A stretch of 64,000 nucleotides of DNA from positions 1 through 64,000 of the forward strand of contig CANNFB010000011.1 of assembly GCA_947503785.1 (NCBI GenBank), written 5' to 3'. The position numbers were made by a program, and so were the translations under genes. How positions within the stretch are numbered: the stretch's first letter is position 1; each line of letters starts with the position of its first letter. Of this stretch, positions 59,904 through 64,000 are shown in pieces. This DNA is from an uncultured Campylobacterales bacterium (GTDB taxonomy: Bacteria; Campylobacterota; Campylobacteria; Campylobacterales; Arcobacteraceae). Below the pieces are notes generated by a model. The model was not told the DNA's origin. It did not search any database and saw nothing but the letters and a program-made list of their open reading frames with translations.

Positions 59904-60413
59904 TTATTTATTGCCATTGTTATTAGAATTCATTTTGTTATTCATCATTGACATTCTTTTTTCTTTTTTTAAATCCATTAATACTTTAAACTGTTCTTTT
60001 TGACTTGGAGTTAAAACTTTATAAACTCTATCTATCATTTCAGCTTTAGCTTCTATTTTGTTATCTCTTTTTTGTCTCATTATTTCAATAAATTTTGCTT
60101 TATCAAATGAATTGTTTGTAAATGCTACATCTGGAGTAACTCTATTTTTCATCAAGTCTTGTTTAATATCACGAATTTGTTGAGTTTGCTCTGCTGTTAA
60201 GTTTAATTGTCTTAATAATGACATTGGTCCTTTTTGACCTTTATGGTGACCTTTTTTCATCATCATATGTTTTCCACCTTGCATTGCACAAGATTGATTA
60301 CCATTGTTCATTCCTTTTTTCATTATACCTTGAGATTGACCATTGCATGCGGCATAAAGACCTGTACTTAAAACTGCTGTTAACGCTGTTGCTACTAATA
60401 TTTTTGTTTTCAT
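59904..60413 (-). CDS. Spy/CpxP-like periplasmic protein with LTxxQ motifs
   Basis: 169 aa. Signal peptide MKTKILVATALTAVLSTGLYA. A His/Met-rich stretch (KHMMMKKGHHKGQKG) suggests metal binding. Two LTxxQ repeats, LTAEQTQQI and LTPSQKEQF, with helical spacing identify the Spy/CpxP fold, a chaperone-like or envelope-stress protein. The Met/Asn-rich C-terminus is disordered. It stands alone between nirB and the zinc ribbon gene, with 226 and 264 bases of gene-free DNA on the two sides in which I see no other clear feature. Confidence 0.88.
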   Translation of the reverse strand: MKTKILVATALTAVLSTGLYAACNGQSQGIMKKGMNNGNQSCAMQGGKHMMMKKGHHKGQKGPMSLLRQLNLTAEQTQQIRDIKQDLMKNRVTPDVAFTNNSFDKAKFIEIMRQKRDNKIEAKAEMIDRVYKVLTPSQKEQFKVLMDLKKEKRMSMMNNKMNSNNNGNK

Positions 60414-60677
60414 TTTATAACCTTTATAACGTTTTGTTATTTGCTACAGTGAAATTATGACATGAGTGTTTTAATCGTTTATGAATCTAATATTAATGCT
60501 ATATTAACGGAAGGGAAGTGATGTAAGTTTTTTTCTAACCATACTACAACAATAGATATTGTTTTTTTGAGAGTTTAAAAGTAAAATAAATTCTTTATTA
60601 GTAATTTAATGAGTTAAATATTTCAATATTAGTTTTTAAAAACATGCTACTATCTAGCAAATTATAAAGGAGGTAAA

Positions 60678-60872
60678 ATGAATCTTGAAGCGAAAATGAA
60701 TTGTCCTAATTGTAATAAAAACATTAGTGTTTTGATAAAAGAAATGATTCCCGGACGAAGAAAAAGATGTTCATCTTGTAATGCAGATATTAAGTTTTCA
60801 GGTGATGATGGTAGAAGAGCTCAAAAAGCTTTAGACGATTTTGAAAAGTCATTAAAAAATATGTTTAAATAA
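60678..60872 (+). CDS. 64-aa zinc ribbon protein
   Basis: Two Cys pairs, CPNC (9-12) and CSSC (31-34), in a small zinc ribbon, then a basic helix (RRAQKALDDFEKSLKNMF). Ribosome site AAAGGAGG upstream. Probably a nucleic-acid-binding or regulatory mini-protein. Confidence 0.75.
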   Translation: MNLEAKMNCPNCNKNISVLIKEMIPGRRKRCSSCNADIKFSGDDGRRAQKALDDFEKSLKNMFK

Positions 60873-60875
60873 ACC

Positions 60876-60904
60876 TTGACAAATATATACTCAAGTGTTA
60901 TAAT
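60876..60904 (+). promoter_or_regulatory. perfect consensus sigma-70 promoter
   Basis: TTGACA (60876-60881) and TATAAT (60899-60904) with a 17-base spacer. No other promoter in the window is as complete. It begins four bases after the zinc ribbon stop, and starts a transcript near 60911. Confidence 0.8.
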
Positions 60905-60908
60905 TATA

Positions 60909-60935
60909 TTAGCATTTCTAACCTTAGAGTGCTAA
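60909..60935 (+). promoter_or_regulatory. CIRCE-like HrcA operator
   Basis: TTAGCATTT, nine bases, GAGTGCTAA. The right arm equals the CIRCE consensus (TTAGCACTC-N9-GAGTGCTAA) in all nine positions; the left arm differs in two. It covers the expected start of the promoter just upstream, as CIRCE elements do. No groESL, dnaK or grpE gene is in the window. Confidence 0.6.
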
Positions 60936-61020
60936 AAAAGAAGTTTACTAAAATTTAAAAGTTATATTAAATATATACCTAATAAAGATTAGTTTTAGTG
61001 CAATTTATTGCAATTTTTTT
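60911..61020 (+). ncRNA. candidate short leader or sRNA behind the CIRCE-like promoter
   Basis: The transcript would run through TGCAA, loop TTTA, TTGCA and ATTTTTTT near 60998-61020, a short stem with a T run that could end it. There is no ATG with a ribosome site in this stretch. If the stem is read through, the next gene is the 42-aa ORF at 61198. The rest of the gap 61020-61197 holds no feature that I see. Confidence 0.35.
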
Positions 61021-61197
61021 ACATAATATGTAAAATATAATGTGTGAAGTTTATAAAGTTAAATTAAACTTATATTCATTTCTATTGGCATAGAGAGTAT
61101 AGGTTTAATATAATTAAATTTTTATTAATCTAATGAATTTATAATTTTATCTTTACAAAAAGTAGCACTTCCTATAATTATAAAGGAGATGAATAAT

Positions 61198-61326
61198 ATG
61201 GGATTAAAACCAGGACCAAAACCTAAAGCGAAATCTACAGGTAAATTAGATCAAAGACGTAGAGATAATAAAAGTACACCAGGTAATAAGCCAAGCTTAA
61301 AGCCATCTAAAAGTACAAAGAAATAA
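61198..61326 (+). CDS. 42-aa basic Pro/Lys-rich protein
   Basis: MGLKPGPKPKAKSTGKLDQR, then RRDNKSTPGNKPSLKPSKST and KK, ATG to TAA, with AAAGGAGAT before the start. Highly basic and probably disordered. It lies about 290 bases beyond the CIRCE-like promoter and converges on nasA. Function unknown. Confidence 0.55.
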   Translation: MGLKPGPKPKAKSTGKLDQRRRDNKSTPGNKPSLKPSKSTKK

Positions 61327-61348
61327 AAAAAGTCTTATGAAGGAGGTG

Positions 61349-63667
61349 TTATACCTCTTTCATCCGTTCATTTGAATAATATATTTCATCTTTTATAACT
61401 ATATGCTCCAACTCCCCAGCAATCTCTTCTTCAACAAACTTAATCCCATCAGGGACTTTTATACTATGAAGTTGAACTGCACATTGTTTATAGTTTGGTT
61501 CAAAAGATTTAGGGTCAAACTCTGCTTTTGTAATAGTGTTGATTAGTTGCTCACTATAATGGAAAGGTACGAAGATATTTCCCTCTCTTACATTTTGAGA
61601 CTCTCTTACAATTACATCTTTTATTCTTCCTCTCTGTGAGCTAATATCAAGTCTTTCACCACTTTTAACTTCTAGTTTTTTAGCATCTTCTGGATTGATT
61701 TCAATCCATGCTTCTGGTGCTAAATTATCTAGTATTGAGATAGTCTTTGTTTTAGTTCTTGTATGCCATTGCTCAACTGTACGTCCAGTATTAAGTATAA
61801 GTGGGAAAGAAGAACTTTGAGCTTCGCTCATCGGTAACCAATCAAGAGCTAATAGTTTTGCTTTTCCATCAGGTGTAGGACAAGGCATATTTTCATCATA
61901 TAGTCGTGCCGTTCCTTTTGGATTAGCTTCATTACATGGCCATTGAACTCCACCTAATTCTTCTATTAACTCATAAGTCATACTTGAGTAATCACAAAGT
62001 CTTCCTGCACTTACTTTTTTCCACTCATTAAATGCATCAATAGATTTCTTCCAATTTGGGAAAAGTCTTTCATTTACATCTTCAAAGTATTTTGAGAATT
62101 CTAATACAATATCAAAATCACTTTTAGTCTGTCCTAATGGTTCAACTGCTTTTCTAGCTCTATTACATCGCCTCTCAGAATTTGTATAAGTTCCTTCTTT
62201 CTCACTCCAAGTAGAAGCTGAAAATACAACATCCGCTTTAAATGCTGTTTCACTTTTAAATGCATCTTGAACTACAAGCAGTTCAAGTTTATTTAAAGCT
62301 CGTCTTAGTTTTTTCTGATCAGGAAATGATACTAAAGGATTAGTTGCTACTATCCATAAGGCTTTTATTTGACCTGCTTCAATTGCATCAATAATCTGAG
62401 GATAAGAATATCCTCTTTTCTGTGGTACATCTTCTACTGGAACATTTACAATTGTTGCATATTCTTCTCTATCATATGAAGAAGCATAGTTTCTATATCC
62501 TGGAATTGAAGAAGTAAATCCAGTTTCTCTTGTTCCCATTGCATTACACTGTCCTGTAATTGAAAGTGCAGTTGCACCTTTTCTTCCAAGATTTCCCGTA
62601 ATAAGTGCAAGGTTACAAATAGCACTAACTGTATCAGTTGCAATTGAACTTTGATTTACACCCATAGTCCAAGCTGACATAGCAGCTGGTGATTTTGCAT
62701 ATACACGAGCTAGTTCATAAAGGTCTTTTACTTCTATTCCTGTTGTAATTGCTACTTCTTGTGGAGTATAATTAGCCATGATATGTTTTCTAAAGTCTTT
62801 AAATCCAGTAGTTCTCTCATTTATAAACTTTTCATCTTCCCAACCTTGCTCTAAAATGATGTAACACAATCCATTCATTAAGGCTAAATCACTTCTTGGT
62901 TTAATAGGTACAAACATATCTGCCATTTTTGCAGTCTTTGAAAACCTTGGATCAATTACTATAATCTTAGGCTTTTTACCCGTAATTTTTTTATTCTTTG
63001 CAATATGTAGTTTTAAAATAGGGTGGTTATCTGCTATGTTTGCACCAATTAACATAATAGTATCAGCATATGAAAAATCTTCATAACATCCAAGAGGTCC
63101 ATCACTTCCAAAAGTTTGTTTATATCCCATAACAGCACTAGCCATACAAAGTGTTGTATTACCATCATAGTTATTTGTTTTAAGTCCAAGTTGTACAAAT
63201 TTGCCAAGAGTATAAAATTCTTCAGTTAGTAATTGTCCCGTTGATATAACTCCTACTGAAGTATTTCCATATTTTGCTTGTATTTCTTTAAATTTATCAC
63301 TTGTAGTTTTAAATGCTTCATCCCAAGAAGATTCTACTAATTGACCATTTTTTCTAATCATTGGTGTTGTATATCTATTTGGACTTTGAACCATTTCGTG
63401 TTCAGATAAACCTTTTGGACATAATGTCCCTTTGTTTACAGGATGTGCTGGATCACCTTTTACATATGTAGGCTTTCCATCTTTAACTCCAATATATAAA
63501 CCACATCCAACTCCACAATATCCACAAGTTGAACGAACCCATTTATCAGGAGCTTTTTGTTTTGCAACTTTTCCAAATACCTTATCATCAACTAGGGCAT
63601 ATTTGTCATTTTTGATATCTAGTCCTAAAAAATCTTTTACATTAAAGTTCTTAATTTTTTCTAACAT
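61349..63667 (-). CDS. nasA: molybdopterin assimilatory nitrate reductase catalytic subunit
   Basis: 772 aa from ATG at 63667, which follows AAAGGGG; the upstream in-frame ATG (63706) lies inside the preceding gene. The 4Fe-4S ligands are Cys48, 51, 55 and 83 (CGYCGVGC and GTLCPKG). Molybdopterin segments include GNTTLCMASAVMGY, GANIADNHPI and TGRTVEQWHTRTK. There is no twin-arginine signal, so it is cytoplasmic and of NasA/NarB type, not periplasmic NapA. Forms an assimilation path with NirBD. A hairpin (GAGGT / ACCTC) spans its stop codon. Confidence 0.9.
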   Translation of the reverse strand: MLEKIKNFNVKDFLGLDIKNDKYALVDDKVFGKVAKQKAPDKWVRSTCGYCGVGCGLYIGVKDGKPTYVKGDPAHPVNKGTLCPKGLSEHEMVQSPNRYTTPMIRKNGQLVESSWDEAFKTTSDKFKEIQAKYGNTSVGVISTGQLLTEEFYTLGKFVQLGLKTNNYDGNTTLCMASAVMGYKQTFGSDGPLGCYEDFSYADTIMLIGANIADNHPILKLHIAKNKKITGKKPKIIVIDPRFSKTAKMADMFVPIKPRSDLALMNGLCYIILEQGWEDEKFINERTTGFKDFRKHIMANYTPQEVAITTGIEVKDLYELARVYAKSPAAMSAWTMGVNQSSIATDTVSAICNLALITGNLGRKGATALSITGQCNAMGTRETGFTSSIPGYRNYASSYDREEYATIVNVPVEDVPQKRGYSYPQIIDAIEAGQIKALWIVATNPLVSFPDQKKLRRALNKLELLVVQDAFKSETAFKADVVFSASTWSEKEGTYTNSERRCNRARKAVEPLGQTKSDFDIVLEFSKYFEDVNERLFPNWKKSIDAFNEWKKVSAGRLCDYSSMTYELIEELGGVQWPCNEANPKGTARLYDENMPCPTPDGKAKLLALDWLPMSEAQSSSFPLILNTGRTVEQWHTRTKTKTISILDNLAPEAWIEINPEDAKKLEVKSGERLDISSQRGRIKDVIVRESQNVREGNIFVPFHYSEQLINTITKAEFDPKSFEPNYKQCAVQLHSIKVPDGIKFVEEEIAGELEHIVIKDEIYYSNERMKEV

Positions 63668-63668
63668 A

Positions 63669-64000
63669 TTAACCCCTTTGATTCCCAGCGAAGAAATTCC
63701 CAGCAAGACCTAAAGCCACTGCTGTTTTATAAAATAAAAGTCTTGATACTACTTCACTTGAAAATGAAATAACAATACTTAAGCCTAAAACTAAAATAGT
63801 ACTTGAATAATTCCCACTTGCAAGTAATAACATAGCTAGAATTGGTAATGCTAAAGCACCAATACTTAAAGATCTTTCTCTATAGTCATTATGTTTAGAA
63901 AAATTATCCTCGTATAAAATCTTTGTTTTATTTAATTGATAAAAGTTATTATCCTCTTCTTCTAAATCTTTATAAAAACTCTTTTGTTTAGTAAATTCTT
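63669..64000 (-). CDS. C-terminal part of a membrane anchor subunit, DmsC/NrfD-like
   Basis: Partial; the gene runs off the window edge. The last 110 residues are visible: a charged stretch (KDLEEEDNNFYQLNKTKILY), then two hydrophobic segments (SIGALALPILAMLLLASGNY, TILVLGLSIVISF) and an end FYKTAVALGLAGNFFAGNQ. The last motif is typical of dimethyl sulfoxide reductase anchor proteins. Its TAA lies one base before the nasA ATG, so it is in the same operon. An assimilatory nitrate reductase with a membrane anchor would take electrons from quinol. Confidence 0.6.
   Translation of the reverse strand, partial: EFTKQKSFYKDLEEEDNNFYQLNKTKILYEDNFSKHNDYRERSLSIGALALPILAMLLLASGNYSSTILVLGLSIVISFSSEVVSRLLFYKTAVALGLAGNFFAGNQRG

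Follow-up and report, generated by a model that had tools for sequence, protein, structure and literature searches.

HspR and HrcA are known mainly as regulators of chaperone operons. The HspR operator, HAIR, reads CTTGAGT-N7-ACTCAAG, and in Campylobacter jejuni the Pgro and Phrc promoters, which drive groESL and hrcA-grpE-dnaK, have HAIR before the core promoter and CIRCE on the start site, with both repressors encoded by the organism (PMC7464140). On promoters laid out in this way HspR and HrcA bind cooperatively, and the DNA binding of C. jejuni HrcA is lost at 42 °C (PMC7464140, PMC8533110). HrcA affects non-chaperone genes as well: Cj0168c of C. jejuni is cited in PMC7464140 as a non-chaperone HrcA target, and the HrcA regulon of H. 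pylori comprises 49 genes, including non-chaperone genes that respond to HrcA (PMC6843607).

Here we describe a promoter with the Pgro/Phrc arrangement in the genome of an uncultured member of the Arcobacteraceae. It lies in a 64,000-nt stretch of DNA, here called the window. Unlike Pgro and Phrc, the window promoter is chaperone-free and sits in accessory DNA; and whereas Cj0168c and the H. pylori genes were found by expression changes, the window has a complete dual operator with no obvious gene. It is a real instance of a known promoter kind in a new setting, away from any chaperone, and its product is uncertain. We consider it likely from the sequence that a clpB-type heat-shock promoter within an accessory block serves no chaperone and yields mostly an RNA of about 210 nt, with some read-through into a gene for a 42-aa protein.

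The promoter, its operators and the repressor genes

The plus strand of the window carries a sigma-70-type promoter with an extended -10 (TTGACA-17-TATAAT, 60876-60904; 12/12 matches), in which the -35 element occupies 60876-60881 and the -10 element 60899-60904. A HAIR-type operator with an exact core, spelled CTTGACA-AATATAT-ACTCAAG, lies over the -35 element and the spacer (60875-60895). The CIRCE operator, TTAGCATTT-N9-GAGTGCTAA (60909-60935), covers the transcription start, which we place at about 60911 from the position of the -10 element. It departs from the 18-base consensus at 2 positions and equals the clpB and hrcA operators of the same genome in quality. The left half, TTAGCATTT, is one base off the clpB and hrcA left half, which counts against our preferred reading. 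The right half, GAGTGCTAA, is the same as in both.

Both the consensus promoter and CIRCE had been reported in the initial annotation and were recovered exactly. Its description of a lone, HrcA-controlled operator holds in that HrcA control is well supported, but is incomplete, because the promoter also carries an overlooked operator for HspR, as do the dual-repressed promoters of the clpB/hrcA class. The annotation had further pointed to hrcA and to the groESL and hrcA promoters for comparison; the gene was found, and both promoters carry CIRCE, the right half being shared with hrcA.

The HrcA-family protein (263 aa, L007, 5138-5929) is encoded between a CIRCE site and grpE-dnaK. Its match to NF003033 (E 1e-69, 234.9 bits) falls 13 bits short of the cut-off of 248, and its N-terminus is matched by TIGR00331; the Pfam HrcA model (PF01628) misses it. 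The assignment is based on the NF003033 match together with the gene position before grpE-dnaK. A PF03444 match was also considered as an HrcA candidate and was discarded, as it concerned a different ORF and NCBIfam settled the HrcA gene. With hrcA present in the genome, HrcA control does not fail for want of its repressor. HspR (130 aa) scores above the NF047375 cut-off and follows a 287-aa CbpA/DnaJ protein in a cbpA-hspR operon.

Assignment of the promoter to the clpB class

Scanning of the whole genome for CIRCE with up to 3 mismatches gave six places, and a reversed control pattern gave none. Four of these are upstream of groESL, clpB, hrcA-grpE-dnaK and htpG, one is the window site and one is intragenic. 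The genome holds three exact copies of the HAIR core CTTGA-N9-ACTCAAG, located at cbpA-hspR, at clpB and at the window site, and the hrcA promoter has a HAIR core with one mismatch. At the base composition of the window, 0.056 CIRCE sites with up to 2 mismatches and 0.2 exact HAIR cores are expected per genome. A chance likeness of AT-rich DNA to a promoter with HAIR and CIRCE is thinkable for the core promoter by itself, since a genome of this composition should contain about 4 promoters with 12/12 matches by chance. Yet HAIR core, CIRCE and spacing are jointly expected about 1e-8 times per genome (the product of the separate expectations), and this, with the empty reversed-pattern scan, makes coincidence extremely improbable.

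We also searched 104 genomes of the family with the DNA of 60660-61340, and the promoter part was present in most, with the leader absent. Among 71 of those promoter loci that were examined, 41 stand before hrcA and 24 before clpB, and six had no chaperone assignment. In all 65 loci thus assigned to clpB or hrcA, HAIR starts 33-35 nt ahead of CIRCE; in the window this distance is 34 nt, and the -10 element is placed as it is in the clpB and hrcA promoters. The Arcobacter-like clpB and hrcA-grpE-dnaK promoters have the same -35, HAIR, -10 and CIRCE as the window promoter, with identical spacing. They differ in what follows: in this genome clpB starts directly after CIRCE, and some 20 nt separate CIRCE from hrcA, whereas the nearest gene in the window is 262 nt away. 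The right HAIR arm ACTCAAG was seen in 13/25 clpB promoters vs. 0/42 hrcA promoters, and the closest-matching family promoter is a clpB promoter. Judged by its sequence, the window promoter is of the clpB type. Because both operators, both repressor genes, the family geometry and the clpB-type arm are all present, it is almost certainly a real heat-shock promoter, dual-repressed by HspR and HrcA and without a chaperone.

CIRCE matches in other genomes and in viral contigs included no good HAIR of this geometry; three weak HAIR cases among them (3 mismatches) resemble double CIRCE sites of Bacillota. The HAIR-promoter-CIRCE pattern had zero viral matches and the window promoter zero plasmid matches. 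In ten genomes of the genus, the classified good CIRCE sites belong to clpB, hrcA, groES and htpG, with the exception of the window site and of a pair at hsp20 in genome G091 (L078, 4623-5200), where a HAIR-like sequence accompanies the two CIRCE sites upstream of the gene. This hsp20 is the sole one detected in the ten genomes. A lost hsp20 was considered as the origin of the window promoter and was rejected, as hsp20 was detectable neither in this genome nor in the other eight of the genus.

By analogy with C. jejuni, we expect the promoter to be off at growth temperature and to be switched on by heat along with clpB. At normal temperature HspR would occupy HAIR across the -35 element and spacer and HrcA would occupy CIRCE at the start site, and the two would jointly shut out RNA polymerase. 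Heat or protein-folding stress would release both repressors, upon which the strong sigma-70 promoter would fire.

The accessory block, the leader and the 42-aa gene

The promoter is situated in a genome-specific block (approximately 60508-61384) that lies between a Spy-like (LTXXQ) gene and a molybdopterin oxidoreductase gene and is missing at this position in related genomes. In genome G095 the flanking genes can be aligned, and the interval corresponding to 60508-61384 of the window is an unaligned 107 bp; at this place G094 lacks the block, and different DNA is present in G093 and G097. Promoter and leader are conserved at this locus in none of the relatives examined, and selection on this copy therefore cannot be demonstrated. 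The Spy-like gene (59904-60413) is read in the opposite direction to the heat-shock promoter. A role of the promoter in serving this periplasmic chaperone gene was rejected on the grounds of that direction and of G095, in which the copy adjoins the oxidoreductase gene with the block absent. Within the block, a 64-aa zinc-ribbon protein is encoded at 60678-60872. It was found in this genome only, apart from one decayed relative in the family, in genome G063, and its PHROG matches are weak. The initial annotation had stated that no chaperone gene follows the promoter. None lies downstream, and no coding traces of clpB, groES, hrcA, dnaK or htpG were found in the 1000 nt after CIRCE.

Between 60911 and 61198 the plus strand runs for 287 nt with no ORF of at least 30 aa, in agreement with the ORF-free stretch of almost 290 bases, then a 42-aa peptide, described earlier. 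We regard 60911-61125 (plus strand) as a candidate untranslated leader or small RNA of about 210 nt. It has no Rfam match (Rfam matches in the window were tRNAs only), and no clear relatives were found in the 104 family genomes, just short AT-rich matches; the leader is structured yet unconserved. The early terminator proposed in the initial annotation corresponds to a hairpin at about 60999-61020, followed by a T run, which is present but weak (-3.3 kcal/mol, z -0.5). A stronger, AU-rich hairpin followed by TTTTTATTAA lies further on at 61053-61123 of the plus strand (-20.2 kcal/mol, z -3.9; 0/200 shuffles equalled its energy) and is the candidate terminator of the heat-shock transcript. The hairpin that follows clpB in the same genome has a similar energy (-18.5). 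Since its U tract is poor and it overlaps a promoter-like sequence, we infer rather than observe an RNA end at about 210 nt. The strength of this hairpin and the weakness of the early one suggest that the preferred product is the RNA of about 210 nt, probably untranslated. It would start near 60911 and mostly end at 61053-61123, and part of the transcripts would read through into the 42-aa gene at 61198. A heat-controlled small RNA or micropeptide, as proposed in the initial annotation, is what we infer as product, and any function of the RNA or peptide is put forward in the same conditional sense.

The 42-aa basic protein is encoded at 61198-61326 of the plus strand behind the RBS AAAGGAG and begins MGLKPGPKPxAKSTGKPDQRRRDNKSTPGN... 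Five further family genomes, 1435 plasmid records and one phage record contain relatives, among them plasmids of Enterobacterales, Rhizobiales, Acinetobacter and Campylobacter. The best of them have about 90% identity over residues 1-30, and relatives are often unannotated. Comparison of all pairs of copies, which are not independent, gave 1272 synonymous-only vs. 602 non-synonymous codon differences. By these sequence comparisons, the ORF is a real, selected, mobile gene, conserved across phyla. No match was obtained in Pfam, NCBIfam or PADLOC families, and nothing relevant to the protein turned up in the papers searched. Some Campylobacter records label it small acid-soluble spore protein L. 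DNA conservation around the gene starts at the RBS. The gene has a candidate promoter of its own (TTGGCA-18-TATAAT, 61085-61114, plus strand; 11/12 matches), and most family copies show, by eye, a -10-like element upstream. In several gammaproteobacterial copies (L245, L246, L250, L252), a GAGGG...CCCTC-like stretch of similar sequence stands just ahead of the RBS and may be a regulatory hairpin. Downstream, the gene converges with the molybdopterin oxidoreductase gene (61349-63706, minus strand), and a terminator-like hairpin (61337-61363, plus strand) is common to both.

Possible products and a second promoter of the same kind

The heat-shock promoter could instead serve the 42-aa gene directly, with the 287-nt leader and the microprotein forming one heat-controlled mRNA, so that a mobile gene would have been placed under heat-shock control here. 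The gene is the first to follow on the same strand, has a good RBS, shows selection at the codon level across phyla and is itself followed by a terminator-like hairpin. We nevertheless think this unlikely, since two hairpins and the promoter-like sequence at 61085-61114 intervene, CIRCE within 4 mismatches was absent near all five other family copies, and DNA conservation begins only at the RBS. Among the family copies, the heat-shock link of this gene is seen only here. Somewhat easier to entertain, though still doubtful, is the view of the promoter as a relic. A transcription unit of clpB type, or of another chaperone, would have arrived with the block and lost its gene, leaving a promoter with no useful product and at most a titration of repressor. 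The clpB class of the promoter, its position in an accessory block beside a zinc-ribbon gene with a decayed relative elsewhere, and the short spacer ending in a terminator-like hairpin are all in line with such an origin. Against it, the promoter itself is undecayed and the 1000 nt after CIRCE hold no chaperone coding remnant. The reading we prefer remains that of a clpB-type promoter yielding mostly the RNA of about 210 nt, with some read-through.

If the preferred reading is right, a heat-induced RNA without a chaperone would become testable in a species of Campylobacterota. The presence of a dual operator on accessory DNA, and of another on a defence-type operon, would wire mobile cargo into the heat-shock response. 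That second promoter was met among the 71 loci examined, in genome G014 (L300, 6469-6531), and has HAIR with one mismatch, TATAAT and an imperfect CIRCE. Like the window promoter, it belongs to the dual HAIR-CIRCE type and stands on accessory DNA without a chaperone, in a genome of this family. Its operon, however, starts about 20 nt after CIRCE and encodes a membrane protein, an MBL-fold protein and an E2-E1-JAB fusion (promoter and operon together, L300, 6469-10478), whereas the window has an ORF-free leader. As the same promoter kind stands on this E2-E1-JAB anti-phage operon, the capture of a dual heat-shock promoter by accessory DNA may recur. More tentatively, accessory DNA of the family might repeatedly capture the HspR/HrcA promoter, such that its cargo (an RNA and/or a microprotein here, the anti-phage operon in G014) is expressed when folding fails. 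The signal that turns on the cargo would then be proteotoxic stress, of which phage takeover may be one form. On heat-shock-controlled defence, the papers searched contained nothing relevant. A GmrSD restriction gene was also found near the E2-E1-JAB operon of G014.
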